The notes under the pieces were generated by a model that did not search any database, had not been told where the DNA came from, and saw only the letters and a program-made list of their open reading frames with translations. 64,000 bases of DNA from a virus. How positions within the stretch are numbered: the stretch's first letter is position 1; each line of letters begins with the position of its first letter. Below are positions 1,607 through 45,135 of the stretch, piece by piece. The DNA lies in IMG/VR virus record IMGVR_UViG_3300042485_001470, positions 31,082-95,081 of that record. One strand, written 5' to 3'. The position numbers and the translations under genes are program-made.

Positions 1607-4600
1607 ATGGAATATTTGGGTAAAAGTCCTAATGGGTTAAATCAACTAAGTTCATCCTTAGTTGGTTTGTTTGTAAGTGGTAGTAATATAGCACAATTTT
1701 CATCAGCATCAGTAAATGTTGTTGGTAGTGTTACTGCTTCTGGAATACAAGCATACGAAATAGATTCTTTTGGAAACTTACCATTGGAAATAAAATCTAA
1801 TACTCAAATAACTGGGTCTTTAGCTGTATCATCTTCAATAACCGCATCTTTATTTAGAGGTGATGGTGCCGGATTGTTTAATATATCAGCCACATCTATT
1901 GGTGATATTGATAAAATAAAATCAGGTTCAGCAACTGCAATAATTTCACCAAATAAAGGGTTGGTAGTAAATGTACCAACTTCAATTGATGGTGTATTGG
2001 CAGTAAACGGAAATTCAAACATAACTGGTTCAGTTGTAATAAGCCAAAACTTAAATGTGGCTGGAAAAATTACAACAACTGAATTACATACAACATTTAT
2101 ATCATCTTCAGTAATATTCTCATCTGGTTCAAATAAATTTGGTGACAACGTTATTGATAGACAAGAAATAACTGGTTCTTTAAACGTAAGTGGTTCTATA
2201 TTTGTAGGCGGAAATACAATACCAACCGATAATACAACAAATGAGGTGTTGGTGTTGAATACTACAACTGGTAGAATTAGTAGAAGATTTGCAGCAGCAA
2301 CTTCTGGTACATCAGGAACTTCTGGCACATCAGGAACTTCTGGAACATCAGGAACTTCTGGAACATCAGGAACTTCTGGCACATCGGGAACTTCTGGAAC
2401 AAGCGGAACTTCTGGTACATCAGGAACTTCTGGTACATCAGGAACTTCTGGTACATCGGGAACTTCTGGTACATCGGGAACTTCTGGAACATCAGGAACT
2501 TCTGGTACAAGTGGAACATCGGGTTCTTCTGGTACTCGTGGAACAAGCGGAACTTCTGGAACATCAGGAACTTCTGGCACATCGGGAACTTCTGGTACAA
2601 GTGGTACATCTGGTTCTAGTGGAACAAGCGGAGCTAGTGGTAGTAGTGGTAGTAGTGGAACATCTGGAACTTCTGGCACAAGCGGTACATCTGGAACTTC
2701 GGGTATAAGTGGTAGTAGTGGAACGAGTGGAAGTAGTGGAACAAGTGGTTCTTCTGGAAGTAGTGGAACGAGTGGAAGTAGTGGAACAAGTGGTTCATCG
2801 GGAACTTCTGGTATAAGTGGTACATCAGGAACTTCTGGTATAAGTGGTACATCAGGAACTTCTGGTACATCGGGAATAAGTGGAAGTGCTGGTACGTCTG
2901 GTACAAGTGGTATAAGTGGTACATCGGGAACTTCTGGTACATCAGGAACAAGTGGAACATCGGGAACTTCTGGATTAACTGGAGCCGGTGGTGGTACTGG
3001 AAGTTCTGGTTCAAGTGGTTCTTCTGGAACTTCAGGAACATCTGGAACAAGCGGAACATCAGGAACTTCTGGGACTAGTGGTATAGGTGGAGCAAGTGGT
3101 ACTAGCGGAACATCAGGAACTTCTGGGACTAGTGGTACATCGGGTATAAATGGAAGTAGTGGAACATCCGGTACACGTGGAACTTCTGGTACAAGCGGAG
3201 CTAGTGGAACTGGTGGTACTTCTGGTACATCAGGAACTTCTGGGACTAGTGGTACATCTGGTACATCGGGTACTTCTGGTACTTCTGGTACTTCTGGTTC
3301 ACGTGGAACTTCTGGAACAAGTGGAGCCAGCGGAAGTGCAGGTTCATCGGGAACTTCTGGAACAAGTGGCACATCCGGAACTTCGGGTATAAGTGGTTCA
3401 TCGGGAACTTCTGGTACATCAGGAACTTCTGGTACATCAGGAACTTCTGGTAGTCGTGGTACAAGCGGAACTTCTGGCACAAGTGGAGTAAGTGGAAGTG
3501 CCGGTACAAGTGGTACTTCTGGTACAAGCGGAACATCGGGAACATCTGGAACATCGGGAACTTCTGGAACATCTGGAACTTCTGGAACATCTGGAACTTC
3601 TGGAACATCGGGAACTTCTGGAACATCAGGAGTAAGTGGTTCATCAGGAACTTCTGGTACAAGTGGAACATCGGGAACTTCTGGAACAAGCGGTACGTCT
3701 GGAACATCAGGAACTTCTGGAACAAGTGGTGTAAGTGGTTCATCGGGAACTTCTGGTACATCGGGAACAAGCGGTACATCAGGAACAAGCGGTACATCAG
3801 GAACAAGAGGAACTTCTGGTACAAGCGGAACTTCTGGTACGAGCGGAACATCCGGTACATCAGGAACATCTGGAACAAGTGGTTCATCTGGAACGCGTGG
3901 GACTTCTGGAACTTCTGGAACTTCTGGTACATCAGGAACTTCTGGAACAAGCGGAAGTAGTGGTTCATCTGGATTACTATCATTAACTGGTACAACTGAT
4001 AATGGTGTAATCACATTAAATGGAACTGCACCAAACGCAACTGTTGAAGCAAACTTAAAATTCGATGGTAGTACATTGACAGTAACGGGGGATGCTACAA
4101 TTAGTGGTAACTTAACTGTAAGTGGTACAACAACTACAATTAATACCGAAACAATCCTATTAGCGGATAATATTATAACTCTTAACTCAAACTTCACATC
4201 TGGAGCACCAACTGAAAATGCTGGTATCGAAGTTAGGAGAGGTTCATCTGCAACTGTACAATTTTATTGGGATGAAACCAATGATAGATGGTATGCAGAT
4301 AATACATTACAGGTTGTAGGCAACGTAATCCTTAGTGGTACAATAGATACTGGACAGGGAGCAACGGAAGTTCATTTAATGAATCAGAATCTTCGTACAA
4401 CTGATAACGTAACACATGCTACAATTACAGCAACAAATGGTGTAAGTGTAACTGGTGGAAACCTTTCAGTAAGTGCTGGTAATATAACTATAAGTGGTAC
4501 AATAGATACTGGACAAGGTGCAACCGAAGTTCATTTAATGAACCAAAACGTTAGAACTTCTGATAACGTACAATTTGCAACAGTAAACGCATCTAATTTT

Positions 4601-7600
4601 AGAGATGGTAATGGTGCATTCAACGTAAACTTAGGTAGTGGTGGTTCTGAAGGTAGAGGTTTAGTTGCTGGATATAGTGGTGGATGGTATGGTGGTATCG
4701 GGTATAACGTAAGACATACAGGTACATCTGGTACTTTAATAGCACCATTAACCGATACGGCAACATATCTTAATTTTAGTCAAGGATTTACTTTCTATAA
4801 TGACCAAACAACTACTGCTGGTAGAACTATTGGTTGGACTCAAATCGGTAGATTAGATAGTGCAGGTACATTTACAATTCCTGGTAACTTAGTTGCGGCA
4901 CAGGTAAATACTGGACAAGGTTTAACTGAAGTTCATTTAATGAACCAAAATGTTAGAACAACTGATAGTGTAACATTTGCTAATATAAGTGCTGCTAATA
5001 CAACTGTTAATAATTTAATTTTACCACAAAATCCGGTAGGAACAACTTATGGAAATGGTGTATCAACAACACCACCATATATGATTTCCCAAACCGTTGG
5101 TGATAATGATGGTTGGCGAATTTTTGGTGAAACATCTACAACAAATGCCGTAAGAATGGTATTTGAATTGATTGATGATATTGAAACTGCATTTACTGAC
5201 CAATGGGCGTTTAGAAATAAATTAACATACGGTGGTTATACTGCAAGAAATGAATTCCAAATATCAGGAGATGGAGATGCATTAGCTCGTACATCGATGA
5301 GGGCTCCAATTTTTTATGATAGTGATAATACTGGATATTATGGTAATTTTGCAGCAACATCCGAATTAAATGCCGCAAATCTATATGGAACTTGGGCTTG
5401 GAGAAATGGAGCACAACAAAACTTCTACACATCAGCTGGAAATTTAAGAGGATATATTCAGGCAACTGATACCGATGATGCACACTTCATTATAGCTACA
5501 TCCGGTGGTGAAGATATATCATTTAGAGATGGTGGACTGGCGGGATCTGTGAATATGGTAATTAGAGGAAATGGTACGGTTCAGGCATACGATGATTTCA
5601 GAGCACCAATATTCTATGATTCGGCAGATACAACATATAGAATTGATGCAAATGGCACATCTGTTGTTGATATAATGGAATTTGGTGGTGATATATCAAC
5701 TAACACTTCAAATGGTTCTAAAATGTTTGGTATGTTTATACCGGATGGTAAATATCAAACTCGTAATTGGCATGCTGGTGATGGTGGATATGTTTGGGGT
5801 GGAATGCAATATAGAACAGGATTATCGGATTCTCCAATTGGTTCATACGCACATAGCGGAAACTTTGCCGCTTGGGCAGGATGGAGACAAAACGGATGGG
5901 TGCCAATTGATAGAACAAAAACATATAAAGTTTCTGCTTGGATAAGAACAACATCTGGTAATCCATATTGCTATCTTTCATTTACGCAAGCTGGATTTGA
6001 TTATTCTCAACCTGATAATGGTGGTTGGGGACAACCTTATTATTGGAGTGGTGTGGCACCATCTTCTTGGACAGAATACACAATGACTATTGGACCTGCT
6101 GGGTCTGGAGCTCAATATACTTGGTATTCATACGCAAGATTCATGCAGTTAGGCTTCCTACATAACTATTTGTATAGTGGATATAGTGGAAATGCGGAAT
6201 TTGTAGGATTTAAAATTGAAGAAGTTGATAATACATTAGCTAATAATACTGTTGTATTAGGACCTATTTACGCAACTCAATTTATTGATAATAATGATGG
6301 TAGTTTCTTAGTTGACCCTAATGGTACTTCTAGACTTAGTGTTTTAACACTAACATCTACATTCAATTTACCAAACAACGCATTAGTATCAGTAAATAAT
6401 GAGCCGGATACTTGGGGTGCTAGATTTAGAACAACAACATCTACATCAAACTTAGGTTCGGCACTTAAAAATATTATTTGGACAGGTGGGGGTAGTTCCG
6501 AAGGTTTTGCAGTTTCTGGAGTAGGAACTGGTGGATATGCATTAGAAGTAAGAAATGATGGTATAGCTTGGGCTAGGAGTTCATTTAGAGCACCTGAAAT
6601 TTACGCTGACCGTTTTTATGATGATGATGGAACATTTGCATTTAGATTTGCACCAAATACTGGTGTATCTAGAGCGATAAACTTGGCAAGTAGTACATCA
6701 GACCCATCAAGTGTTGGTTCAGCATCTGGTATCACATCTGGACAAAGAAGTGATGGACAACCATACTATATGCTTTATGTACCATCTGCTTATAACAATG
6801 GATATAGTACACATACTCGTTTAAGATTAAATTGGCATACTGGTGTTGAAATAGGAGCTGACCCATCGTATGGTGGTACTAGATTCTTTAACGGAAACTT
6901 ACCAATTTACGGAAGTGAAATAATGTCAATCGGTGCTGGTGATTCTAATATAAGAATTACAAACACTTTATTTGTTCCGTATATTGCAGATAGAGACAAT
7001 ACGGCATTCTATCTAAACCCTGCTGATACGGGAAATTCTATTAATATAGCAGGTTCATTACGAGCAGCTAATTATAATAAACCGGCTATTATGTCTGTGT
7101 CAAGCGGAACATCTTCAGCTGGGGCATCATTTGGAATTCAACAAGAAACGGCTGAAGGTTGGACAGGTATATTTGTAGATTATGAACCATATACTGGATG
7201 GGGATTCTACCATGATAATCCAAACAACCTATTTTCGTTTACTTCTGAAGGTTCAACTGGGCAAATTCGTTCATTTACTGTACCATCGAGAGTAAGTGGT
7301 AATAGAACGGCTTATGAGAAACTTAGAATTGACCAAAATAATGGTGATATAATTGTTGGTAGAGATGGTTATGCACAATCATCATTTAGAGCACCAATAT
7401 TCTATGATAGTAACAACACAACATATTATATAGACCCTAATAGTAACTCTGTTATAAGAGGTAGATTGGATGTTCAGGCTGGACATGGTAATACAAATAT
7501 AAGATTAACTGCAATAGGTGGGGAGATGGGTTCTGGTGTACAATCTACTATGCAGTGGTGGGTATCTGAACCGGGTGTAACTTGGAACGATGGTGGTTTT

Positions 7601-9919
7601 GGATATAACGTACAAAACGATGGTGGTTCTCCTTCTGGATTTGGTAGATTGAATACGGGATTAGGACAGGCTTACATGAGATTCAGTACAGCTGGGCATT
7701 TATATTTTTATAACACAAATACTTCTGGTACTAGATATTCTACTATGGATATGTATGCTAGTAATTACATATATGTTCATAACTATTTAGAAGCAGGTAG
7801 TTCATTAAGAGCACCAATATTCTACGATAGTAATAATACTGGATTTTATACTGACCAAGCATCTACATCTCGATACAATGAGATAAGAGCTAACAAAATG
7901 CGTGCTGATACCAATGGTGCTATGAGTGATGACCAGGGTTGGTGGACGCATGACCCGTATGGATATGGGTGGGGTAAACCACATGGTTCATTCCGTACAT
8001 TGGAGGTATCTACATCTGGTAATTTCAGTACTGAACCAATGTTGTTCCGTATGCACCAGTGGGGTTCTGGAGCAGCAGAATTCTGGAAACCACAAGGTCT
8101 TACTCTTTTCTTGAGAGAAACTCCAATTGGTGGTAATATTAAGCACAGTAACTGGTTTACTCGTTTTTATGTACAAAGATACATTGAAACGGATGAATCA
8201 ATGAGAGCGCCAATTTTCTACGATAGTGATAATACTGGATATTATGTAGACCCTACCGGCGAAACAAACTGGCAAGGATTAACTTTATATGCAAAAAATA
8301 GAATTGGTTTAGCCGCTAAGGAGCAGTATAGAAGAAGTGATTACACTGGTGATACTAACCACTGGACTGGTGCTAGAGGATGGGGTACTACTTCATTCAA
8401 TGACCAAATGAACTGGGGTTCTGGTTGGGGTGATTCTTGGGGTAGTATTGGACAATCTCCTGGCGATACTTCTCATTATTTAACGGCACAAGTATATCAC
8501 TATTCTTATTCTGGAGTTGGATATGGGTGGCAATTAACTGGTGGTGTTACTGATTCATTGTGGTGGAGACATAGCTGGCCATCTAATAGCGGTTGGTTCA
8601 AAATCGCAATGTATGATAATAATGCATCAGCGGGTGGTGCGTTATGGGCAGGTATATTTTATGATTCAAATGATAGTGGATATTATTTAGACCCAAATAC
8701 TACATCAAATGCTGCATTAAGAATTAGAGGTGGTACATTACATGGACCTAACCCAAGTTGGGGAAAATATTTAGCAGTTGGTACAAACGGACATTGGACC
8801 GGTGGTTATGCTAGTGTTGCTGTAACCAATGGTAACCTTCACTTAGATTCTGAAGGTGGGTATGGTATGTACCTACAATGGTATGTTGGTGGTAGCACCT
8901 ATGTAAATGGTGATATACGTGCAAACATATTCTATGATTTGCAAAACACCTCATATTATTGTGACCCTACTGGATATTCTCAATTTAGTAGTGGTGAGTT
9001 TAACAACTATATGAGAGCAGCTCGTATAGACTTCATTGGTACGGGTGGTAACTCTGGACAAGGTACAAATGCATACTCTATCTTCCAAGAAGGTGGTGGA
9101 TGGGGTTATCCTTATCCGGATTTAAGAATTGCATACCATACTGGTATCAAATTAGGAGCAAACGGACCTTCTTATGAAGGAACAAGAGTTTACACCGATT
9201 ATGATATGAGTGATTTAGCAATCCAATTGTGTGGACCATCAAACTATTCATTTAAGTATAAATGGATGTGGACAAATGATACTGGATATTATTCTAGTGT
9301 AAATGGGGCACACTGGTATCCAAATAACATCACCTATGGTGCTTGGAGAATGGATGGTAATCGAAATGGTTGGTATGGACACGTAATTGATTCGGCGTAT
9401 TTACCTCACTATATGTGGGAGAGTGGTAATGGTGGAATATATTTACAAAATGCCGGAAGATGGGTATTATATCATTCATTGGGAAATAACTGTACCGGAT
9501 TGGGTACATCAGCAACATCTGGCGCATACGGTATATATGTAGATAAAGGTGTTTACACTACTGGAAACGTTGTAGCTTACTCCGATAGACGTGCAAAAGA
9601 AAATATTGTAACTATTGATGATGCATTAAGTAAATTAATGCAATTAAGAGGTGTTTATTACAATAGAATAAAAGATGAAGATAAAGTAAGACAATTGGGT
9701 GTAATTGCACAAGAAGTTAATGAGATAGTTCCTGAAGTAGTAACTTATGCAGAAGATGTTGATGAATACGGAGTTGCTTATGGTAATTTAGCTGGATTAT
9801 TTATAGAATCTATAAAAGACCAACAAGCAATTATTGATAAACAATCTGAAGAAATAAATTTATTAAAAGATGAATTACAAAAAATTAAAGATTTAATATT
9901 TAATACTAATAAAGGATAA
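1607..9919 (+). CDS. Giant tail fibre with collagen-like region and S74 chaperone
   Basis: 2770 residues. Order: beta-repeat N-terminus with ITGSL/VSGSI motifs (1-230); a collagen-like region made almost only of G-T-S/G-S-S triplets (about 231-790); a segment with repeated 'TIDTGQGATEVHLMNQN' units (about 830-1130); then about nine copies of a receptor-binding-type module carrying R-A-P-I-F-Y-D-S-x-N-T-x-Y-Y-x-D-P (about 1220-2480). It ends with an intramolecular chaperone/autoprotease of the Peptidase_S74 family (about 2658-2755), with the Ser and Lys of Y-S-D-R-R-A-K-E-N-I and I-A-Q-E-V downstream, followed by a coiled-coil tail. S74 domains trimerise fibres and cut themselves off, so the mature fibre should lack about 110 C-terminal residues. 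The ATG at 1607 is used; the ATG at 1603 is out of frame. Confidence 0.9.
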   Translation: MEYLGKSPNGLNQLSSSLVGLFVSGSNIAQFSSASVNVVGSVTASGIQAYEIDSFGNLPLEIKSNTQITGSLAVSSSITASLFRGDGAGLFNISATSIGDIDKIKSGSATAIISPNKGLVVNVPTSIDGVLAVNGNSNITGSVVISQNLNVAGKITTTELHTTFISSSVIFSSGSNKFGDNVIDRQEITGSLNVSGSIFVGGNTIPTDNTTNEVLVLNTTTGRISRRFAAATSGTSGTSGTSGTSGTSGTSGTSGTSGTSGTSGTSGTSGTSGTSGTSGTSGTSGTSGTSGTSGTSGTSGTSGTSGSSGTRGTSGTSGTSGTSGTSGTSGTSGTSGSSGTSGASGSSGSSGTSGTSGTSGTSGTSGISGSSGTSGSSGTSGSSGSSGTSGSSGTSGSSGTSGISGTSGTSGISGTSGTSGTSGISGSAGTSGTSGISGTSGTSGTSGTSGTSGTSGLTGAGGGTGSSGSSGSSGTSGTSGTSGTSGTSGTSGIGGASGTSGTSGTSGTSGTSGINGSSGTSGTRGTSGTSGASGTGGTSGTSGTSGTSGTSGTSGTSGTSGTSGSRGTSGTSGASGSAGSSGTSGTSGTSGTSGISGSSGTSGTSGTSGTSGTSGSRGTSGTSGTSGVSGSAGTSGTSGTSGTSGTSGTSGTSGTSGTSGTSGTSGTSGTSGTSGVSGSSGTSGTSGTSGTSGTSGTSGTSGTSGTSGVSGSSGTSGTSGTSGTSGTSGTSGTRGTSGTSGTSGTSGTSGTSGTSGTSGSSGTRGTSGTSGTSGTSGTSGTSGSSGSSGLLSLTGTTDNGVITLNGTAPNATVEANLKFDGSTLTVTGDATISGNLTVSGTTTTINTETILLADNIITLNSNFTSGAPTENAGIEVRRGSSATVQFYWDETNDRWYADNTLQVVGNVILSGTIDTGQGATEVHLMNQNLRTTDNVTHATITATNGVSVTGGNLSVSAGNITISGTIDTGQGATEVHLMNQNVRTSDNVQFATVNASNFRDGNGAFNVNLGSGGSEGRGLVAGYSGGWYGGIGYNVRHTGTSGTLIAPLTDTATYLNFSQGFTFYNDQTTTAGRTIGWTQIGRLDSAGTFTIPGNLVAAQVNTGQGLTEVHLMNQNVRTTDSVTFANISAANTTVNNLILPQNPVGTTYGNGVSTTPPYMISQTVGDNDGWRIFGETSTTNAVRMVFELIDDIETAFTDQWAFRNKLTYGGYTARNEFQISGDGDALARTSMRAPIFYDSDNTGYYGNFAATSELNAANLYGTWAWRNGAQQNFYTSAGNLRGYIQATDTDDAHFIIATSGGEDISFRDGGLAGSVNMVIRGNGTVQAYDDFRAPIFYDSADTTYRIDANGTSVVDIMEFGGDISTNTSNGSKMFGMFIPDGKYQTRNWHAGDGGYVWGGMQYRTGLSDSPIGSYAHSGNFAAWAGWRQNGWVPIDRTKTYKVSAWIRTTSGNPYCYLSFTQAGFDYSQPDNGGWGQPYYWSGVAPSSWTEYTMTIGPAGSGAQYTWYSYARFMQLGFLHNYLYSGYSGNAEFVGFKIEEVDNTLANNTVVLGPIYATQFIDNNDGSFLVDPNGTSRLSVLTLTSTFNLPNNALVSVNNEPDTWGARFRTTTSTSNLGSALKNIIWTGGGSSEGFAVSGVGTGGYALEVRNDGIAWARSSFRAPEIYADRFYDDDGTFAFRFAPNTGVSRAINLASSTSDPSSVGSASGITSGQRSDGQPYYMLYVPSAYNNGYSTHTRLRLNWHTGVEIGADPSYGGTRFFNGNLPIYGSEIMSIGAGDSNIRITNTLFVPYIADRDNTAFYLNPADTGNSINIAGSLRAANYNKPAIMSVSSGTSSAGASFGIQQETAEGWTGIFVDYEPYTGWGFYHDNPNNLFSFTSEGSTGQIRSFTVPSRVSGNRTAYEKLRIDQNNGDIIVGRDGYAQSSFRAPIFYDSNNTTYYIDPNSNSVIRGRLDVQAGHGNTNIRLTAIGGEMGSGVQSTMQWWVSEPGVTWNDGGFGYNVQNDGGSPSGFGRLNTGLGQAYMRFSTAGHLYFYNTNTSGTRYSTMDMYASNYIYVHNYLEAGSSLRAPIFYDSNNTGFYTDQASTSRYNEIRANKMRADTNGAMSDDQGWWTHDPYGYGWGKPHGSFRTLEVSTSGNFSTEPMLFRMHQWGSGAAEFWKPQGLTLFLRETPIGGNIKHSNWFTRFYVQRYIETDESMRAPIFYDSDNTGYYVDPTGETNWQGLTLYAKNRIGLAAKEQYRRSDYTGDTNHWTGARGWGTTSFNDQMNWGSGWGDSWGSIGQSPGDTSHYLTAQVYHYSYSGVGYGWQLTGGVTDSLWWRHSWPSNSGWFKIAMYDNNASAGGALWAGIFYDSNDSGYYLDPNTTSNAALRIRGGTLHGPNPSWGKYLAVGTNGHWTGGYASVAVTNGNLHLDSEGGYGMYLQWYVGGSTYVNGDIRANIFYDLQNTSYYCDPTGYSQFSSGEFNNYMRAARIDFIGTGGNSGQGTNAYSIFQEGGGWGYPYPDLRIAYHTGIKLGANGPSYEGTRVYTDYDMSDLAIQLCGPSNYSFKYKWMWTNDTGYYSSVNGAHWYPNNITYGAWRMDGNRNGWYGHVIDSAYLPHYMWESGNGGIYLQNAGRWVLYHSLGNNCTGLGTSATSGAYGIYVDKGVYTTGNVVAYSDRRAKENIVTIDDALSKLMQLRGVYYNRIKDEDKVRQLGVIAQEVNEIVPEVVTYAEDVDEYGVAYGNLAGLFIESIKDQQAIIDKQSEEINLLKDELQKIKDLIFNTNKG
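2300..3975 (+). repeat. GTS/GSS triplet repeat coding tract in the giant fibre
   Basis: About 1.7 kb of 9-nt units coding Gly-Thr-Ser, with GSS, GIS, GVS, GAS and GTR variants. Codons are varied (ggt/gga, aca/act, tct/tca/agt/agc), so the tract is not a simple perfect repeat, but it remains open in other frames and on the other strand. Gly at every third residue is the collagen-like requirement; there is little proline. Confidence 0.9.
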
Positions 9920-23089: not shown

Positions 23090-23461
23090 ATGTTAGATAT
23101 TAACCGATATAAAAAAATAAATAGTCCTGATGTACTTTATGATAGTATAAAGATAAAAACTCATGTGGCAACACCAACCCAAACCGATTATAAAAGAGGG
23201 TATATTACAAGATATTTCATACAAAAAGCAAATGATACCGAATCAGCTATATATGAAGTTGATTATATAGGGTTTAGTAAATTTATAGACAACCCATTTT
23301 ATACACATGTAAATTTAAATTGGAGAATAATTGGTACTGATGAACAAATAAAAGATTCAAATTTTAAAGCAATACGTTTATTAACTCCAAAAATACCAAA
23401 ACTTCAACTATATCTTCCAAACTTATTGCAGTTTAAGCAAAAAAATGATTTGGAAGTTTAA
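23090..23461 (+). CDS. Baseplate-region protein, unknown
   Basis: 123 residues starting MLDINRYKKI, two bases after the hub stop. Mixed alpha/beta with many aromatic residues (Y-I-T-R-Y-F-I-Q-K, Y-E-V-D-Y-I-G-F-S-K-F). No Cys, no membrane segment. As the last gene of the tail operon it is probably a baseplate wedge or accessory protein; no family recognised. The TTTG box of the tmRNA promoter lies inside its last codons. Confidence 0.45.
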   Translation: MLDINRYKKINSPDVLYDSIKIKTHVATPTQTDYKRGYITRYFIQKANDTESAIYEVDYIGFSKFIDNPFYTHVNLNWRIIGTDEQIKDSNFKAIRLLTPKIPKLQLYLPNLLQFKQKNDLEV

Positions 23462-23480
23462 TTATTTTTTTGTATATTTG
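23449..23480 (+). promoter_or_regulatory. Bacteroidetes-type promoter of the tmRNA gene
   Basis: TTTG (23449-23452), 20-nt spacer, TATATTTG (23473-23480). It matches the Bacteroidetes -33 TTTG / -7 TAnnTTTG consensus exactly. The tmRNA 5' end predicted from its acceptor stem (23494) is 14 nt after the box. Confidence 0.75.
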
Positions 23481-23493
23481 TATTTATCAATAT

Positions 23494-23879
23494 GGGGGTG
23501 ACTCGGAATTGATTACAATGAGAATTGTAGTATCACATGTAGTGGGATGGTTCTCCAACCACTTTAATCTCGGAATCAACAAATAAACGCAGAAGAATTA
23601 TCTTCTTGGACCTTCGAAGATGCTATGGCATTCGTAGGTGCTGATTACGCTGTAGCAGCCTAATCAAACTCGGGTCGGTGCACATATAACCTAGGAACAG
23701 AAGTGTTTACAAAGGCTTTATTCGTTGAGCCCAAATCAATGAATTGGTGGAAACGCTGAACTAACCATTCGGCCCCAATTATTTTGGAAAGTGAATAAGA
23801 TTAAACTTTATCCTAAACATGTGAGACGTTGGTATTATGGTTACTTTGTAAGACATGGGTTCGAATCCCATCACCTCCA
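23494..23879 (+). ncRNA. ssrA: Transfer-messenger RNA (tmRNA), phage-encoded
   Basis: A 386-nt single-piece tmRNA. Seen: 5' GGGGGTG (23494-23500) pairs with 3' CACCTCC (23872-23878, one G-U pair); discriminator A at 23879; a T arm with ATGGG / TTCGAAT / CCCAT; and the typical CTAAACATGT before it. An upstream pseudoknot (GTGG...CCAC) precedes the tag reading frame. The frame from GCA 23589 to TAA 23661-23663 gives a 24-residue tag starting AEELSS and ending DYAVAA, the latter close to the bacterial YALAA degradation signal. The encoded 3' end is C-A-A, so CCA must be added by the host. The role is to rescue stalled ribosomes and tag their products. It has its own Bacteroidetes-type promoter and a terminator. 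The tag is longer than the roughly 10 residues usual in bacteria. Confidence 0.92.
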
Positions 23880-23884
23880 CAACA

Positions 23885-23921
23885 ATCCCGAACTATTATT
23901 TGGTAGTTTGGGATTTTTTTT
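23885..23921 (+). terminator. Terminator of the tmRNA gene
   Basis: ATCCCGAACTA pairs with TAGTTTGGGAT (11 bp, one G-U pair, loop TTATTTGG), followed by eight T. It starts five bases after the tmRNA end. Confidence 0.85.
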
Positions 23922-23930
23922 GTATATTTG
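23899..23930 (+). promoter_or_regulatory. Bacteroidetes-type promoter nested in the tmRNA terminator
   Basis: TTTG (23899-23902) sits in the loop of the terminator; 20 nt later is TATATTTG (23923-23930). The ATG of the polymerase-like gene (23936) is five bases after the box, so the transcript would have almost no leader. Confidence 0.65.
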
Positions 23931-25255: not shown

Positions 25256-25858
25256 ATGAAAAAAATCAGTACCCTTATCGGTTTCCTACTTGTTTCTTTA
25301 ATTTCGTTTGGGCAAGATGTTAGAATTAAAAACGAAGTATTTGAAGTTCTTTATTCACAATCATTAGAACAACCTTTAGTAATTAAATATCGTTCAACTA
25401 ATAGACCTACAAATGTGAACAGAGGTACTATGGATTTTTACAAAGAACCAAACATTAAAACATCAGATGCGGAAGATTACGCTAAAAATATATACGATAA
25501 AGGACATGGTGCACCAGCTGCAACATTCTCTGATAATATGGTAAACCTAAAACAAACATTCTCATACTTAAATTGTATAATGCAAGACCAATACCTTAAT
25601 AGAGGTGAGTGGAGATTGTTAGAAGAACAAATCCGTAAATGGGATGATACTGAAAATATAACTGTACTAATAAAAACATTCTTTGATACTCCAGTAAAAA
25701 GAGTGGCAACTGGAGCAGCAATTCCATCTTACTTACAAAAACACATCTATTTTGAAACACAAAAGAAATGGAGATGTTATGTATTTCTAAATCAAAAACC
25801 AAAATTTCATTGGGATGAATTAGAAATGATATGCGAAGCTGAAGACCACAAATTTTAA
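25256..25858 (+). CDS. Exported DNA/RNA non-specific endonuclease (NUC1 family)
   Basis: 200 residues. The signal peptide at 1-20 (MKK, hydrophobic core, end S-F-G-Q) is typical of Bacteroidetes. The active-site block D-K-G-H-G-A-P-A (His 84) matches the NUC family D-R-G-H, followed by F-S-D-N (91-94), N-C-I-M-Q (106-110) and L-N-R-G-E-W-R-x-L-E-x-x-I-R (114-127), the conserved metal-binding Asn helix. It should cut DNA and RNA with Mg2+, in the periplasm or outside the cell. Possible jobs are degrading released host DNA or competing DNA, lowering lysate viscosity, or feeding nucleotides. The stop overlaps the next ATG by one base, so it is coupled to the giant gene. Confidence 0.8.
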   Translation: MKKISTLIGFLLVSLISFGQDVRIKNEVFEVLYSQSLEQPLVIKYRSTNRPTNVNRGTMDFYKEPNIKTSDAEDYAKNIYDKGHGAPAATFSDNMVNLKQTFSYLNCIMQDQYLNRGEWRLLEEQIRKWDDTENITVLIKTFFDTPVKRVATGAAIPSYLQKHIYFETQKKWRCYVFLNQKPKFHWDELEMICEAEDHKF

Positions 25859-28800
25859 TGAATATGAATTTATCTGAATTAATAAACGAAATACTATCCG
25901 AATGGGCATATAGAGTTGAAAATGGTATGCCTGACCCAAAGAACCCAACCCATTTAAAGGAGTTGGGTATTGTACTTTCTGAAATGGGATTATCTCATAT
26001 CAAAGATACATTGGTTGAAAACCTTTTGGTGGAAACGGGAAAAACTCCACAAAAAGTTGTTGAAGCTGAAAAGGGTAACTTTACAAATCCTGCTCTTAAT
26101 AAATCTATTAAGTATAAAAATGATAAAGGTGAAGATAAGGAAGGATTGGTTGGTAACCTGTTAAGATTACCAAAAGAGCATCCTGGTAGAAAAGCAGCGG
26201 AAGCAACATTACCTGCCGATGGTACGCCGGAAAGAGATTCTATTAATAAAGATTTGGGTGGGGAAGGTCAACCTAAAAAGCCTGAAGATGGAAAGGGCAA
26301 AGAAGGTGGAGAATCAGGTGGTGGAGAAGATGAAAAAATGAAACAAGCGGCGGCAATGTTTGACCCAAAAGTAGACCCAGCTATGGCTGCTAGAATGAAT
26401 AAAGAAAAAGAAGTTCAAGCTCAATTAGCAAAAGATGCTGAAGCACAAAACGAACCACCCCCAACTCCAAAAAACCAAACAACAAACAAACAATTAGCAA
26501 AAGCAGCTGGATTTGATAATGTTGGTAGTTGGTATAATGACCTTAATAAGAAAGCAATGTCTGATGATCCTGAAGTGGCATCAAAGGCGGAAAAAGATTT
26601 AGATACATACGAAAAAAATAAAGTAAAAGATGCTCAATCAACTGATGATTTTAATCCAATAGATAGTAAGGATGTAGCAAAAGAAATGCCACAAGCTGAC
26701 CCAGAAACATTTGGAGGAGATAGTGATATACCGGATGGTATAGAACCTGAACAATTGCAAAAATTCAATACTGATATTAGTAAAGTAGCACAGCAAGTAG
26801 CTGATGCAAAGGCTAAAGGAGAACCAGCACCAAACATTAACTTATGTGATGTGACTGTTCCTGGTACTAACTTATATTGTGATGATAATTTGGGTATTCC
26901 AAGAGACCAAATGCCACAATTCAAAGGTACTGCTCAACCTGGTAGTAGAGCAGCTGGAATGGATGTGGATGCAAGTGGTGAGGTAGACACTGAACCTGTA
27001 TTCAAAGAAATGTTAAAAGAGAAAGGTATTAAGACATTACAAACGGAAATACCTGCTGATAAATTAAAAGCAACTCAGCAAGATTTAGTTGGTGCAAAAG
27101 TAGTTGGTATGATGGGTGTTTTAAAAGACCCAAATCACCCAGCTTTTGAAAAAATTACCGCACCAATATATGTGAGTAGGGATGGTCACGTAATTGATGG
27201 ACATCACCGTTGGGCGGCAATCGTAGCTCATAATGCAGCAAATCCAGACAATCAAATACCAATGAAAACAACGGTATTGGATATGGATATTAAAGATGCA
27301 ATTCCAATGGCGAATAAGTTTGCAGAAGATATGGGTATTGCGGCTAAGAAAGCAGATGCAAATAAAGAAGCACCAACCGAACAACCATCAGAACCAGCAA
27401 AAAGAGAACCTGCCAATAATGATCCTGAATCTAAAGCACAGCAATTTAAAGGAAAATCATCTGGTGAAAATATCCAAACAATGGAAATGGAAGGTGGTGG
27501 ATTCGTATATGGAACGAAGCACGGAAACACCGCAATGGTTGATGATATATTAGATGATGTTAAATCTAAAATACCAAAAGAAAGATGGAAGGATGTTGTA
27601 TTCGTAGGTGAGGGAGGTGCAACTGGTGATAGTGGTGAAGTGGAATTTAACGATGAAATGGATTACGCAGCTCCAAAGTTCAAAGAAATGGGTGCTGGTG
27701 TGGATACATGGGATGGTGATGATATGGATGTACATAATGACCAATCTAAATTATACCAAAAGCAAAAAGAAAAAACTGGATTTAACGATTCTCAAGTTAA
27801 AGCTGGTAACTGGGCTAGTATGATTGGGCAGGGAGAAGGTACTGATACAATGTCACCAAACGATTATTTAGATGATGAAGGTAAACAATTCTTAAGTGAT
27901 GCTGCAAAAGAGGCTGGATTCCCACCAATAGAAAATTGGAATGAACCAACCGAACAGGATAAAGATACTCTTTATAGATTATCATTCCCAGAAGATAATG
28001 GTGATAAACCAACAAAGATAAATGATATTCAAGTTGCATTTAATGATGCAAGAGATGAAAATTTAATTGAAAAGAATAAAGAACTAACTGCACAGGGTAA
28101 AATACCTATTACGATTGCAGGTGAGAGTCATGTTGACTTAGTCGATAAAATGACAAGAAAACAAAAAGGAGCATCAAGCGAAAAATTACCTGAACCAGAA
28201 GCCCCATCAGAAGAAGATGGTGGTGTTGTATATAGTGTGGGTGGTGGATATTATTCGGATAAGCCTGATGGGCCTGCACAATATGTGGCAACTGAAAATG
28301 TAATTCAAAAAGTATTAATTGAAGGTGATATTAATTTTTCTTATTTATTGTTTGAAGCAGCAGTAACTAAAAAAACTTCTAAAGGTAAGGTTGTAAAATT
28401 AAGAACAATCAAACCAAAAGACCAAAATAAAGCAACTGCAGCAGCTGCGGCAGCAAAACCACAGCCACCTGCTAAAATTGTACCACCGGGAGTAAAACAA
28501 AAACCACCGGTTATCGCACCACCAGAGGTAAAACCAAAATCACAAGCACCTGCTAAAATTGTACCTCCTGGTGTAAAACCAAAGGCATCAGTTCCACCTC
28601 CACCACCGCCTCCACCGCCGCCACTTCCTAAGAAGAAAGCAGGAGCTGTGCCACCTCCACCGCCACCTCCGCCACCAACGGTGAAGAAAGCAGGAGCTGT
28701 GCCACCGCCACCGCCACCACTTCCTACGAAAAAAGCAGGAGCTGTGCCGCCTCCACCGCCACCTCCGCCACCAACGGCGAAGAAAGCAGGAGCTGTACCA

Positions 28801-31800
28801 CCTCCACCGCCACCTCCTCCGCCGCCACTTCCTAAGAAGAAAGCAGGAGCTGTACCTCCTCCACCGCCACCTCCGCCACCTCCACCGCTTCCTAAAAAAG
28901 CAGGAGATAAAAGTGGTTGGGATGGATATGAAGAACCTGAATGGATAAAAAATGCTCCAAAAGGTTGGGATGATGATGCGGTTAAAAATAAGAGTGCTTG
29001 GGGTGATGAACCAATGCAAGAACCTGATTGGATGAAAGGTGGTTCTTCGTGGGATAAAAAGCCAATGCCTAAAGGTGAAACTCCACCTCCTGGTACTAAA
29101 AAAGCTGGAGCAATTCCACCACCGCCTCCACCGCCTCCACCGGGAGCTAAGAGTGCAAATAATAACGAAAATATACCACCAACCGATAAACAAGCAAATG
29201 AACAAATAGCTCAAGAAAGAAAAGGTTTAACTCATGAGGAAAATCAAGTTTATGAATTCTTAGAAGGAATGCCTGAAGAGCAAAGGGCAGAGGCAATTCA
29301 AAAAGCATTGGATGATAGAAGTTTGTTGCAAAAAGGATTGCAAGATACAATGGTAGGCGGTTGGTTTAAGAAGAAAGGGAAAATGTTGTCTAATGTATAT
29401 GATGGAATAAAGCAATGGTATAAAACAGGTAAAGTTGGTACTACTAAAGATTGTAGTGGTGCACCAGCTGGACCTCATGCAAATAAGAATGAAAATATAA
29501 AAGAAGATTCACAAAATAGACAAGACTATTTAGCATCTTTAGATAAGACGGGTAAAAAGAAAAAGAAAGCTGATGATAGTGATTGTATGGATGTGCATGT
29601 TGAGGACTATCAAAAAAGAGATAAAGATGGTAACTTAATGTACAAAAAAGAACCTGTATATGAAAGTGGAGAAAAACCAGACCCAAAAAACTTTGGACCA
29701 GATGGTGCATATTTCGGTGGGTTGGGAACTGGATACATAGGTCCTAGAAAAACTGGAACTGAATATGGTAATGCTTCTAAAGAAGATGCATTTAAAGCAA
29801 GTGAATTAGATTCTAAAACAGGATACTTTAAGAGAGATGGAAAATACTATGGTGTAGATGGTGAGGAAGTAAATGCGAAAGGACAAAAATTAGATGCAGA
29901 GGGTAATACAACACAAAAGACAGAAAGATGTTTCTTTTGTTTTCCTCCGGGAAAAAAGGTCCCAGTTACGCAAAAAGTTGCTGATTTGGAAGATGGTTTA
30001 ACCGCTGAACAAAAACATGCAGCTCATCATTCGGAACATGCTCAACATGAAAGAAAGCATGCGATGTGGCATTTAGGAATAGAAGCTTCATTGATAGTTG
30101 GTGGTGCATTAGCTGGCCCTATGATATTAGCTAAGATGGGAGTCGGTGGAGCAGCTGCTGGAGCTGGTTCGCATGGTGTAGCACAAGCAACTTCACAAGC
30201 CGCAACAGCCGCAGCTGAACATCACGGAGCATCTGCATTTGCAGCACACGTTTTAAAAGATTTTGGAAAGCATGCATTAGCAGAAACATTAGGAGTAACG
30301 AACCCTTATGCAGCAGCAGGGAGTGGGTTGGCAGCAAGTGCAGTTACTGGTGGTGTATTAGAATCATTTTGGAAAGATGTAGAAAAGTATAATTTATTAT
30401 CGGAAGATATTGATGGAGAAATGGATGAGAATAAAGGTAAAGATTTCTTAGAAAAAATTATGGTATTGATGATGGAGAAAATGAAAACTTACAAAATGAC
30501 TCCTCAGCAAAAGTTGGAAAGTATAAGAAAGTATAAATTTGAAAAAGCTGAAAACGAAAAGAAAAAACAAAAACAAGATAAATTAAAAGATTTGGCTAAT
30601 TTACTAAAAGAAAAAACAGCAAAGTCAAAACAAAATTCTATAAATCATTTTGTTGAATTTGCAGCTAAACGATTAAATTTAAAAGAAACTCCAAAAATTA
30701 ATTTAATGAGTGGAAATGAATTTAAAAATGAATTGGCAGCTTTGGGTGGGTATGACCCTTCTTCAAAAGAAATATTTGTTGCAACCGAAGGAAGATTGAC
30801 AGCTGATATTTTAAGAACTATTGCACATGAAATGGTACATAGAAAGCAAGAAGAAAAAGGATTCCTTAAGAACATTGATAAAGATGGTTCAGCTGGGTCT
30901 AAAATAGAAAATCAAGCCAATTCAATTGCTGGAATTTTGATGAGAGAATATGGTAAGATAAACAAACAAATCTATAACGAAAATACAAAAAAACAATTAG
31001 AATTAGTAAGTAATTTATTATTAGAGAAGGTTAATCGTTTTATTGATGAGGCTAAACCAAAGAAAGATGATCCTGATGTAAAATATATAGATGGAAAAGG
31101 AAAAGAACATACAATCAAATTTTCATCAGCAATTAAGTATGATGAAAAACATCCTGCTTATATAGCAGCTATGAAATTAAAAGATACTGGAGATAACTCA
31201 AATGATACCCAAACTGTTCAAGGTGCAGGATTGTTTGATGACCCAGAATATCAAAAAAGAATGGGAGCTGAAGTACCACCAACACAAACAACACCAACTG
31301 ATTCAGAAGAAAATCCGGAAGGATTGTATGACCCTAATGATAAATTACAATCGGCAGTTGTTGATGCAAAAAATCCAAAAGAATTATTTTCCGCATTAGA
31401 TGAATTAGGTAAAGATGAGGAAGATATAATGTTGGATAAGGTTAAAGCTGGGGCAGGTGGTCCTGTTGCATCAACTGGTGAAACTCTTTGTACTGAAGCT
31501 CAAACTAATATGATACAAGGTAGATATAATCCGAAGGAAGTTAGGAGTTCTACGGAATATAAAGCCGAATTGGCAAGTGTTAGAAATGTAATGAGTGGTA
31601 CTGATAAGAGAGCAAAAACTGCTCTTACTAAGGAATTGGATAATATTTGTGACAAAATGGGGTATTATAAAGAAGATGGTAACCCTGATTATGAATTAGC
31701 AATGGCTATGAAAGCCGAAGCAGATTTGTATATTAAACAAAATTTACCAGCTTTCAAAAAAACAAATGTAGCAAAAACTAAATTTAAAAAAGAAGAAGAT

Positions 31801-33201
31801 ATGGTAAGTTGGATGAAAGCATCATTCTATTCATCATATTCTTTAATAAATAATGGACCTGCTGATTGGGATAGAAAAAAGGGTAATGGTAGAGTAATGA
31901 AAGCTAATCCAAGAACACAAGGAGCTACAAAGCAAGTTTTATTAGATGGTTTAAAAAACGCAAAAACTCCTGAAGAAAAGGCTCATTATGAAAATCAATT
32001 AAAAGTTTGGAGTAAATTTAAAGGTTATCACGATACGTTTTTGGTTTACAAAAATGATAAAGGATTGGTTTCAGTATTTCATATATCAAATAAAAAAAGT
32101 GATGAGTTAGATGACCCTCAAAATAATACAACTCCTGAAACTAGACTTGCTAACTATATGGCAGCAGCTAGAGAAGCTAATTTAAGTCCTAAAGCAGCTA
32201 AAGCGGTAGCTAACGCACAATCAGTAGCTATGGCAGGTTCTGCTGATAATGATAATATTGCAAAGGGTGCTTGGAATGAAGTAGAAGATGTAAACTTAAT
32301 AACATCATTAGCCGGTAGATTACCTGCTAGAGGTCAAACTGATGTTAAAGATGAATATTATACTGATTTGAAAGGTGATAAATTAGTTAAAGATTGGTAT
32401 AAAAAGAAATATGGTAAAGATAAGTGGGAAGCAAAATGGAAGGCAGCAAAACCAAATGAAGTAATTGGAGTAGTGATGCAAATTGCAGAAGCACAAGATG
32501 ATATTTCAAAACTATCAGGAAACTTTACTAAATTTATGTTAAAGCAAGGTCAATTAGCACAAAGTGTATTTGCAAAAGCTCAATCTGGTATGAATGCAAA
32601 ACAAATTTCTCAAAGCTTTAACGGAATATATTCACCAAAAGAAATACAAGCTATTCTTGATAGTGAAACAATGAAAATGTTAGCTGATAAAAAAGCACAA
32701 CATGCTGCTGGTTTAGAAGGTGTACATAAAGGATTTATTACATCACTACATAAAGCAGATGGTACAAAGCCTGGTCATAGTGGTAAAAACGGACCTGCTG
32801 TTGAAACCTACGTTGCTGGTACGTTAAAAGCATTACATATTGATACCTACGTTACTAACTTTGATGAAAATATTGAGATTGAAATGGGTGGAGTTGGATG
32901 TAAACCTATTGATGTTAGGGGATGTATGGCTAGCCTATCTGGATTTAAGGGAGATATAACAACCCCAGAAGGAAGGGCGGCATTAAATACACATTTGGCC
33001 GAAAACGTAAAAGTAGATGCTGATTCAGATGCGGTATATCTTATTGGTAGTGATGGTAAGACTAGAACTTATTTAGCAAGTGATACTTGGAGACAGGCTG
33101 GTTCATCTAAAAAAATAGCAACTGGTTTTGGTAGTAATTTAAGAAAATGTTTAAAAAAGGCAGTTGGAAGTAGATTATCTAAAAAGAAAGCTAAAAAGTA
33201 G
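25858..33201 (+). CDS. 2447-residue multidomain ('polyvalent'-type) protein with ParB-like and metalloprotease domains
   Basis: Order: helical N-terminus; charged linkers; a ParB/sulfiredoxin-like domain (about 385-490) with V-S-R-D-G-H-V-I-D-G-H-H-R-W-A-A; a segment with V-F-V-G-E-G-G and I-A-G-E-S-H-V-D-L (about 540-770), unassigned; five to six repeats of K-K-A-G-A-V then poly-proline (about 909-1098); a region with several Cys and a hydrophobic A/G-rich stretch (about 1405-1440) after a His-rich segment; a zinc metalloprotease motif H-E-M-V-H (1657-1661); and a long C-terminal half ending in basic K-K-K-A-K-K. Several enzymatic modules on one chain is the layout of phage polyvalent proteins, which are packaged and injected to protect the incoming genome. 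Injection is inferred, not seen. A TATTTATA element precedes the two-gene unit. Confidence 0.7.
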   Translation: MNMNLSELINEILSEWAYRVENGMPDPKNPTHLKELGIVLSEMGLSHIKDTLVENLLVETGKTPQKVVEAEKGNFTNPALNKSIKYKNDKGEDKEGLVGNLLRLPKEHPGRKAAEATLPADGTPERDSINKDLGGEGQPKKPEDGKGKEGGESGGGEDEKMKQAAAMFDPKVDPAMAARMNKEKEVQAQLAKDAEAQNEPPPTPKNQTTNKQLAKAAGFDNVGSWYNDLNKKAMSDDPEVASKAEKDLDTYEKNKVKDAQSTDDFNPIDSKDVAKEMPQADPETFGGDSDIPDGIEPEQLQKFNTDISKVAQQVADAKAKGEPAPNINLCDVTVPGTNLYCDDNLGIPRDQMPQFKGTAQPGSRAAGMDVDASGEVDTEPVFKEMLKEKGIKTLQTEIPADKLKATQQDLVGAKVVGMMGVLKDPNHPAFEKITAPIYVSRDGHVIDGHHRWAAIVAHNAANPDNQIPMKTTVLDMDIKDAIPMANKFAEDMGIAAKKADANKEAPTEQPSEPAKREPANNDPESKAQQFKGKSSGENIQTMEMEGGGFVYGTKHGNTAMVDDILDDVKSKIPKERWKDVVFVGEGGATGDSGEVEFNDEMDYAAPKFKEMGAGVDTWDGDDMDVHNDQSKLYQKQKEKTGFNDSQVKAGNWASMIGQGEGTDTMSPNDYLDDEGKQFLSDAAKEAGFPPIENWNEPTEQDKDTLYRLSFPEDNGDKPTKINDIQVAFNDARDENLIEKNKELTAQGKIPITIAGESHVDLVDKMTRKQKGASSEKLPEPEAPSEEDGGVVYSVGGGYYSDKPDGPAQYVATENVIQKVLIEGDINFSYLLFEAAVTKKTSKGKVVKLRTIKPKDQNKATAAAAAAKPQPPAKIVPPGVKQKPPVIAPPEVKPKSQAPAKIVPPGVKPKASVPPPPPPPPPPLPKKKAGAVPPPPPPPPPTVKKAGAVPPPPPPLPTKKAGAVPPPPPPPPPTAKKAGAVPPPPPPPPPPLPKKKAGAVPPPPPPPPPPPLPKKAGDKSGWDGYEEPEWIKNAPKGWDDDAVKNKSAWGDEPMQEPDWMKGGSSWDKKPMPKGETPPPGTKKAGAIPPPPPPPPPGAKSANNNENIPPTDKQANEQIAQERKGLTHEENQVYEFLEGMPEEQRAEAIQKALDDRSLLQKGLQDTMVGGWFKKKGKMLSNVYDGIKQWYKTGKVGTTKDCSGAPAGPHANKNENIKEDSQNRQDYLASLDKTGKKKKKADDSDCMDVHVEDYQKRDKDGNLMYKKEPVYESGEKPDPKNFGPDGAYFGGLGTGYIGPRKTGTEYGNASKEDAFKASELDSKTGYFKRDGKYYGVDGEEVNAKGQKLDAEGNTTQKTERCFFCFPPGKKVPVTQKVADLEDGLTAEQKHAAHHSEHAQHERKHAMWHLGIEASLIVGGALAGPMILAKMGVGGAAAGAGSHGVAQATSQAATAAAEHHGASAFAAHVLKDFGKHALAETLGVTNPYAAAGSGLAASAVTGGVLESFWKDVEKYNLLSEDIDGEMDENKGKDFLEKIMVLMMEKMKTYKMTPQQKLESIRKYKFEKAENEKKKQKQDKLKDLANLLKEKTAKSKQNSINHFVEFAAKRLNLKETPKINLMSGNEFKNELAALGGYDPSSKEIFVATEGRLTADILRTIAHEMVHRKQEEKGFLKNIDKDGSAGSKIENQANSIAGILMREYGKINKQIYNENTKKQLELVSNLLLEKVNRFIDEAKPKKDDPDVKYIDGKGKEHTIKFSSAIKYDEKHPAYIAAMKLKDTGDNSNDTQTVQGAGLFDDPEYQKRMGAEVPPTQTTPTDSEENPEGLYDPNDKLQSAVVDAKNPKELFSALDELGKDEEDIMLDKVKAGAGGPVASTGETLCTEAQTNMIQGRYNPKEVRSSTEYKAELASVRNVMSGTDKRAKTALTKELDNICDKMGYYKEDGNPDYELAMAMKAEADLYIKQNLPAFKKTNVAKTKFKKEEDMVSWMKASFYSSYSLINNGPADWDRKKGNGRVMKANPRTQGATKQVLLDGLKNAKTPEEKAHYENQLKVWSKFKGYHDTFLVYKNDKGLVSVFHISNKKSDELDDPQNNTTPETRLANYMAAAREANLSPKAAKAVANAQSVAMAGSADNDNIAKGAWNEVEDVNLITSLAGRLPARGQTDVKDEYYTDLKGDKLVKDWYKKKYGKDKWEAKWKAAKPNEVIGVVMQIAEAQDDISKLSGNFTKFMLKQGQLAQSVFAKAQSGMNAKQISQSFNGIYSPKEIQAILDSETMKMLADKKAQHAAGLEGVHKGFITSLHKADGTKPGHSGKNGPAVETYVAGTLKALHIDTYVTNFDENIEIEMGGVGCKPIDVRGCMASLSGFKGDITTPEGRAALNTHLAENVKVDADSDAVYLIGSDGKTRTYLASDTWRQAGSSKKIATGFGSNLRKCLKKAVGSRLSKKKAKK

Positions 33202-44161: not shown

Positions 44162-44365
44162 ATGGCTATTTTAAGAGGGCAAACTCATCCTGCCGCGAAG
44201 TTGACAGATGAGCAAGTTCTAAACATCAGAAGATTATGGAGTATGGGCCACCGAAATTTAAAGGTGATTGCCCGTAACAACAAAGTTTCACCTGCCAATG
44301 TAATGAAGATAGTTCAACGTAAAACTTGGGCACATCTAAATGAATTTTGGAGTGGAAGCTTATGA
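44162..44365 (+). CDS. Small helix-turn-helix protein coupled to the first Mom-like gene
   Basis: 67 residues. A-K-L-T-D-E-Q-V-L-N-I-R-R-L-W, then I-A-R-N-N-K-V-S-P-A-N-V-M-K-I-V-Q-R-K-T-W-A-H-L: a helix-turn-helix like those attached to phage HNH endonucleases (K-L-T-x-x-Q-V-x-x-I-R ... S-x-x-x-V-x-x-I-x-x-x-x-x-W). Here it stands alone without a nuclease domain. Its TGA overlaps the ATG of the Mom-like gene (ATGA), so the two are translationally coupled. Mu also has a small regulator, Com, overlapping mom, but Com is a zinc-finger RNA binder and this protein has no Cys. A DNA-binding regulator role is inferred. Confidence 0.65.
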   Translation: MAILRGQTHPAAKLTDEQVLNIRRLWSMGHRNLKVIARNNKVSPANVMKIVQRKTWAHLNEFWSGSL

Positions 44366-45135
44366 AAGTAGAAGGTAAACAATACTGCGATATCTCTAAA
44401 TTTTCTATTAGAGAAATTAACAAAAACATCGCAAAGGATATCATTGTCAATAACCATTATAGTGGGATATGGACGAAGGTATCCTATGCGTTGGGATTGT
44501 TTTACATATCCGATGATGAGCATAATTTTTTTAGTGGTGTAAACGAACAATTGGTTGGAGTTGCCTGTTATGGTGACCCGGTTGGTAGAAATGCAGGTGC
44601 ATCAATTTCCGAATTACTTCCTAGAGATGGTGTATTAGAATTGACCCGTTTATTTGTATTTGATGGATATGGTACTAACATTGAGAGTTGGTTCGTTGGA
44701 CAATCTTTCGAATGGTTAAGAACTAATGTACCTCGTATTAAAGCCCTAATATCCTATTCAGACCCAAACGCTGGGCACTTAGGTACGGTATATCAAGCTA
44801 CCAATTGGATATATCAGGGTAACAAAATTAGATGGTCGGATAGTTGGAGTTTTAAGTGGAGTGAGGATGATGAATGGCATCATTCTCGGACATCTTATGT
44901 GAAGTACGGAACGAATGACCCAAAGATAATTCAGACAATGGTTACAAGCCCATTCTGGATTAAAAGAGAACCCCGTAAGCACCGATATGTGTATATTCTA
45001 ACCAAAGATAAGAAGGAACGCAAAGCCCTCTTAAAATCGCTTAAACATGAGGTATTCCCATACCCAAAAGTAGAATTAGATATTATTGATGAAATCCATA
45101 AAATGGACCCAATAGATTTGGTAGTCTCAGGATAA
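44362..45135 (+). CDS. Mom-like DNA modification protein, copy 1
   Basis: 257 residues from ATG 44362 (M-K-V-E-G-K-Q-Y-C-D), the same start as copy 2. Seen: I-A-K-D-I-I-V-N-N-H-Y-S-G (23-35), E-L-T-R-L-F-V-F-D-G-Y-G-T-N-I-E-S (93-109) and S-Y-S-D-P-N-A-G-H-L-G-T-V-Y-Q-A-T-N-W-I-Y-Q-G (131-153). The latter blocks match the pattern I associate with the GNAT-fold Mom family (phage Mu adenine modification) and its phage relatives. Such proteins change bases in phage DNA to resist restriction. The exact modification is not known. The promoter for the next gene lies over its last codons. Confidence 0.6.
   Translation: MKVEGKQYCDISKFSIREINKNIAKDIIVNNHYSGIWTKVSYALGLFYISDDEHNFFSGVNEQLVGVACYGDPVGRNAGASISELLPRDGVLELTRLFVFDGYGTNIESWFVGQSFEWLRTNVPRIKALISYSDPNAGHLGTVYQATNWIYQGNKIRWSDSWSFKWSEDDEWHHSRTSYVKYGTNDPKIIQTMVTSPFWIKREPRKHRYVYILTKDKKERKALLKSLKHEVFPYPKVELDIIDEIHKMDPIDLVVSG

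Follow-up and report, generated by a model that had tools for sequence, protein, structure and literature searches.

A tmRNA gene among the phage tail genes

The 64,000-nucleotide stretch of viral DNA analysed here (the window) carries a one-piece tmRNA (ssrA) gene at 23494–23880, which is the sole tmRNA of the 95,081-base virus record to which the window belongs. All features of this locus described below are on the plus strand. The gene was called by ARAGORN, and the covariance model RF00023 matched it at 86.8 bits (E 2.8e-32; gathering score 47) over the full model, 1–374, bearing out the original prediction of a phage-encoded tmRNA. The full linear match ruled out a two-piece or permuted form. 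The predicted start, 23494, stood, but the predicted end, 23879, fell one base short of the true end at 23880; across the ARAGORN and RF00023 placements, the 3′ end was 23880 or 23882. ARAGORN found no tRNA within the window.

The acceptor stem, the T arm and a tag frame ending in DYAVAA-stop, all of which had been described earlier, were read directly in the sequence. The 5′ strand of the acceptor stem (GGGGGUG, 23494–23500) pairs with CACCUCC, and the alanine identity pair G3–U70 is present together with A73. G3 and U70 were kept in 76 of 78 related tmRNAs. The 3′ strand of helix 2, the T arm (GGGUUCGAAUCCC) and the acceptor stem make up the tRNA-like domain (23801–23880), whose 3′ terminus reads CAA, with no encoded CCA. 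Upstream of the resume codon GCA lies the element AAUAAAC (23582–23588), which the sequence and the relatives mark as the type of Bacteroidota hosts. The tag reading frame (23589–23663) encodes the 24 residues AEELSSWTFEDAMAFVGADYAVAA, closes with UAA, and ends as an open frame with a hydrophobic A-A degron; it was called by ARAGORN, belongs to a conserved family and is under purifying selection (see below).

The covariance-model alignment assigned positions to the PK1–PK4 regions, but many of the pairs it made within PK2 and PK3 were non-standard. The PK2–PK4 domain (23664–23800) is divergent among relatives and was apparently exchanged by recombination. The stop codon of a tmRNA usually lies in the loop of helix 5, with a short tag, although this is not obligatory (PMC1168896, PMC11915505). 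The window tmRNA has neither property: RF00023 placed helix 5 within the frame of the 24-residue tag, and the stop codon lies past it. The single-strand fold of the RNA beat 100 of 100 shuffles (z −2.96). Its minimum-energy structure differs from the full tmRNA fold, as expected because the RNA has pseudoknots.

Promoter and terminator-like hairpin

The original prediction had given the gene its own host-type promoter and terminator; a promoter of this kind and a terminator-like hairpin were found. A promoter of the form TTTG-N20-TATATTTG (23449–23480), which we take to fit the Bacteroidetes promoter consensus, ends 13 nt before the mature 5′ end of the tmRNA. Seven promoters of this form were found, and a second one near the tmRNA (23899–23930) serves the gene starting at 23936. 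Such a promoter was located within 90 nt upstream of 28/77 related tmRNAs, compared with 14/3,358 control windows. Downstream of the tmRNA lies a terminator-like hairpin (23884–23921; AATCCCGAACTATT-ATTT-GGTAGTTTGGGATT) of 14 bp followed by a T-run, with an energy of −22.4 kcal/mol for a 69-nt stretch. The 3′ part of this hairpin overlaps the next promoter.

Hairpin and promoter are fused in this way at 23884–23930 and also at 23449, 39255 and 52872. The −33 TTTG of the fused elements is in the loop or the 3′ arm of the hairpin, and at 23899 the T-run is the spacer. It is possible that such a fusion serves this phage as a combined stop–start boundary element.

Genome context and the probable host

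The tmRNA, for which early and strong synthesis had originally been suggested, lies among tail genes, which are usually late genes, but has a promoter of its own. The window holds genes for the tail sheath, baseplate hub and tail tube. It also encodes a DnaB-type helicase, a ribonucleotide reductase, a T4-type DNA polymerase and a clamp loader, along with a gp32-like protein, a RecA-like protein and a 5′–3′ exonuclease. Judged by gene content, this set of replication and contractile-tail genes therefore identifies the source as a T4-like myovirus. By DNA polymerase, the nearest named phage is Microcystis phage Mel-JY01 (51.5% identical), and its tail sheath is 48% identical to that of the window. 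The sheath of Flavobacterium phage immuto is 54.6% identical over two pieces covering 47%. No tmRNA match above the RF00023 cut-off was obtained in Mel-JY01 (190 kb). Since the seven promoters appear to fit the Bacteroidetes consensus, the host is probably a Bacteroidota bacterium, and the signals within the tmRNA point the same way.

Several other genes of the window may be recorded here. Two Mom-family proteins (44347–45135 and 45429–46229; PF25680, E about 1e-43) are encoded near the T4-like replication genes and are likely to modify the DNA against host restriction. Downstream of the phage DNA polymerase, a protein (53644–54855) has a DruA domain (PF14236, E 5e-19), named from the Druantia defence. 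The window also has an ORF of 2447 residues without a Pfam match (25858–33201) and one of 2770 residues (1607–9919).

A family of long tags in related viruses

Relatives were collected in two ways. In the tag-independent way, 34 viral contigs were picked by the protein encoded upstream of the tmRNA. RF00023 scored above its cut-off in 17 of 35 records (these 34 and Mel-JY01), and several more contigs stop inside the tmRNA. The tmRNA lay at the same site in these relatives, and every complete tag downstream of the upstream protein had 23–25 residues. The exception was a distant 266-kb phage contig, L039, with its tmRNA elsewhere in the genome (1501–1882). In this contig, linked to the window through a tail protein, the tag is the short, host-like GVNNYALAA (VNNYALAA as read by ARAGORN). 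About ten of the 34 contigs break off inside the tmRNA or shortly past it, which would suit a branch point of recombination or assembly at this gene.

In the tag-dependent way, IMG/VR was scanned for DYAVAA-stop and for FEDxMA; the counts refer to the matches listed and are lower bounds. At least about 150 long-tag contigs were obtained, their tmRNA tags having 23–26 residues. The loci totalled at least 188 (152 from the two scans), repeats of the same contig being counted, with at least 88 distinct 120-base stretches among them. The shared pattern is S[ST]xTF[ED]DxM[AS]F[VI]GADYAVAA. For 87 distinct sequences among the matches listed, tag lengths were 23 (26 sequences), 24 (43), 25 (14) and 26 (4). 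Among the listed matches of the DYAVAA-stop scan, 110 of 119 loci were long-tag tmRNAs, and the other nine were outside any tmRNA. The ARAGORN tags VN[NK]PEHYLSAP in several relatives were mis-calls, the normal frame holding DVELSTWNFEDAMAFVGAYDYAVAA. Long-tag records are up to 271 kb in length, and 33/50 of them encode a tail sheath whose identity to the window's own runs from 90% down to 36%; the tag is thus spread over several phage groups. In INPHARED phages the consensus tag was absent by tblastn, and blastn gave short fragments only. Our literature search found no report of a conserved, phage-specific long tag family.

The tag peptide is under purifying selection

Conservation was measured on 78 divergent representative tmRNAs from loci partly chosen by the tag itself. 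Mean nucleotide identity was 81.5% in the tag coding sequence, compared with 72.5% over the last 80 nt at the 3′ end, 66% in the 5′ part and 57.8% in the pseudoknots. The RNAs thus diverge elsewhere, and the tag is their most conserved section. In host tmRNAs the ranking was the same, but the lead of the tag was narrower (70%, against 67% for the 3′ end). Differences in the tag were 0.13, 0.07 and 0.31 for the three codon positions, and pN/pS was 0.29. The frame and its stop were kept in 78/78 representatives, and all length differences were multiples of three. The test was repeated on residues 1–14 in loci picked only by DYAVAA, the scan patterns leaving third positions free. The differences were then 0.20, 0.12 and 0.39 (permutation p 0.0002); conservation as an artefact of the pattern scans was ruled out, these unselected residues being still significant.

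It could be argued that the stretch is conserved through RNA structure, as helix 5-like hairpins within the frame, and not as a peptide. RNAalifold did find two short stems here, one with a U-A/A-U covarying pair, and the minimum-energy fold also pairs the tag region. However, the consensus structure is weak (−4.28 kcal/mol, 8 pairs), the changes are concentrated at third codon positions, and neither the invariable frame and stop nor the length changes in threes speak for this reading, which we hold to be very improbable. The third-position bias and the weak RNA structure therefore indicate that the peptide is what is conserved, and the substitution pattern places it under purifying selection. 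Part of the conservation could still be at the RNA level, since the tag region also folds. A search for an amphipathic helix in the tag gave a low hydrophobic moment for the consensus, and this candidate was dropped.

A comparison with the relative L002 showed the inside of the tmRNA to be mosaic. Ahead of the tmRNA the two sequences share about 97% identity, and further on 98%, whereas between 23531 and 23765 of the window identity falls to 52–60% across PK1 and PK2–PK3, with 85% in the tag stretch. By this alignment, exchange has replaced the interior of the tmRNA, yet the two tag peptides remain similar.

These results also bear on whether the gene is a non-functional remnant of a host tmRNA gained by transduction. 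Host tmRNAs do score higher with RF00023 (105–200 bits against 66–111), and the window tmRNA lacks an encoded CCA. Yet many relatives carry the gene at the same site, together with a promoter and a terminator-like hairpin, its intact tag frame is under purifying selection, and G3–U70 is retained in nearly all of them (76/78). A remnant is thus already refuted by conservation, barring a different function, and we give it almost no weight.

Comparison with Bacteroidota host tmRNAs

The tags of Bacteroidota hosts were surveyed in a set weighted to high-scoring models and supplemented by 40 further regions, chosen manually to cover the range of scores. All 72 of 72 tags had 9 (39 tags) or 10 (33) residues; they were of 25 kinds, and all ended in AA. 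The phage tags have 23–26 residues, and the expectation that the 24-residue tag AEELSSWTFEDAMAFVGADYAVAA would prove longer than usual held good. The phage tag pattern had 0 matches in 84,980 cellular genomes, while the controls were positive (the pattern in the window and 110 loci, GENNYALAA in Bacteroidota). When up to 3 mismatches were allowed, a search of 396 Bacteroidota genomes for a related pattern gave 0 matches.

In other respects host and phage tmRNAs are alike. Both are one-piece RNAs (387 nt for the window tmRNA, about 350–400 nt for hosts) with G3–U70, the same resume-codon offset and context, and a tag ending in YA-x-AA. The phage DYAVAA end matches the YALAA and YAMAA degrons of host tags such as GENNYALAA, ADDYSYAMAA and GNTQYAMAA, which lack the conserved insertion. 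The phage RNAs also have lower RF00023 scores and divergent pseudoknots. As the resume offset and context match those of the host, the phage tag can be read as a tag of the host type into which about 15 residues have been inserted ahead of the degron. One Bacteroidota chromosome, L413, has a second, low-scoring tmRNA (462–873; 49.3 bits) whose tag is GENNYALAA; it lies about 45 kb away from the normal tmRNA, perhaps in an integrated element.

The likeness to host tmRNAs would suit an ordinary phage tmRNA that backs up host trans-translation, the tag being a longer, adaptor-independent degron whose sequence is inherited and not functionally specific. The normal YAVAA end, the host-like resume element and G3–U70 are in keeping with this, and a role in maintaining translation has been suggested for known phage tmRNAs. 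Nevertheless, the insertion is conserved as a peptide, also at unselected positions, while the pseudoknots diverged to 58% identity, and a mere spacer would not need STxTFEDxMAFVGA. We regard a simple back-up role as rather unlikely.

Relation to known phage tmRNAs

The original statement that tmRNA genes are known in few phages no longer holds, since they occur in 402 of 18,146 phage genomes (PMC9004378). Tag lengths range down to 2 residues, with 10 the commonest (PMC11915505). The crAss-like phages cr10_1 and cr50_1 and Chryseobacterium phage MA9V-3 also encode a tmRNA. Unlike the one-piece form of the window, theirs are permuted (Rfam, ARAGORN), and the tags called by ARAGORN (GNNFVTDYTQLAVA, GNNFVTDYTAIGA and GNVIDINKYVAKLEVAA) are unrelated to the long tag. 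For Methylophilales phage Melnitz and SAR11 phage Mosig, both lytic myophages, the tmRNA was proposed to support or redirect trans-translation (PMC9004378). The Melnitz tmRNA differs from that of the window in being two-piece and of the alphaproteobacterial type, with a glutamine riboswitch, as in Mosig (PMC9004378). Phages of other hosts, namely mycobacteriophages (the Bxz1 group, Wildcat) and Bacillus phage G, carry ssrA (PMC4131195), with no shared long tag family reported for them in the literature searched. Phage tmRNAs themselves are known, and the conserved long tag is the new part.

Phage DS6A has a tmRNA consisting of the tRNA-like domain only, which is reported to inhibit tmRNA (PMC4131195, PMC11915505). 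This precedent raises another reading, in which the phage RNA acts as a decoy, displacing host tmRNA from SmpB and ribosomes and adding a tag less well handled by host quality control, so that phage products are protected or fragments withheld. The tag does differ from host tags, with the degron end the same. The complete mRNA-like and pseudoknot domains and the intact YAVAA of the window RNA argue instead for active tagging and degradation, and we think a decoy unlikely.

Search for a partner of the tag

SmpB and adaptor genes had been proposed as something to seek elsewhere in the genome, but the phage record contained no homologue of SmpB or SspB. SmpB was also missing from 50 long-tag records and SspB from 49 (fragments or records of unknown completeness). 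A phage-encoded SmpB was accordingly set aside for the 51 records searched, and SspB as a partner for the 49; these absences are weak because the records are fragments. Since the phage record lacks SmpB, the tmRNA would have to rely on the SmpB of the host. The notion that the residues before DYAVAA have a role of their own was strengthened by their conservation across phages, although the search identified no partner for them.

ClpP was found in 6/50 long-tag records. In four of these regions a ClpP-like protein of about 180 residues (L455 3362–3904, L456 8434–8976, L457 3144–3686, L458 2635–3174) is encoded about 4–6 kb from the long-tag tmRNA, with tRNAs between; the order of genes is the same in all four, which suggests a single clade. 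No ClpP was seen in the available sequence of the window's own clade (fragmentary records). ClpP was rejected as a general partner, being limited to one apparent clade, with a head maturation protease as its best PHROGs match. In the ClpP clade, a gene for a conserved protein of 105–107 residues and no known family (L455 7219–7542, L456 4601–4918, L458 7923–8240) ends about 6 nt before the tmRNA and is a candidate partner. No neighbouring gene was common to all long-tag loci; the best family, the upstream tail gene, occurred in 28/78 loci, and a shared neighbour was discarded as the partner.

Proposed function of the long tag

We favour, as a probable reading, a working phage tmRNA whose long tag combines a host-readable degron with a conserved docking element of about 15 residues for a protease, an adaptor or another factor. 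By analogy with the known tmRNA pathway, the RNA would be transcribed from its own host-type promoter, matured by host enzymes, which would add CCA, and charged with alanine by host AlaRS through G3–U70. Host SmpB would bring it to ribosomes that have stalled on truncated mRNAs, and such ribosomes should be common in infected cells. The tag then appended would be of 24 residues, not the 9–10 of the host. Its DYAVAA end should stay readable by ClpXP-type proteases of the host, leading to degradation, and the S[ST]xTF[ED]DxMAFVGA element most likely would be the docking site of a protease, an adaptor or some other factor, from either host or phage, which would handle the tagged fragments differently from host-tagged ones.

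A more specific and tentative proposal is that Bacteroidota phages of a widespread group have evolved a trans-translation tag of their own, with STxTFEDxMAFVGA as the peptide on which a specific factor, from phage or host, docks. If so, infected cells would run a phage-directed branch of quality control distinct from that of the host. The tags of tmRNAs are normally short degrons; a tag of 23–26 residues that is shared among viruses and is the most conserved part of the RNA implies selection on the fate of tagged proteins during infection. Because the tag is conserved in viruses and absent from the bacterial genomes searched, it suggests that these viruses label unfinished proteins in a manner of their own, and it offers a practical starting point for asking why phages have tmRNA genes.
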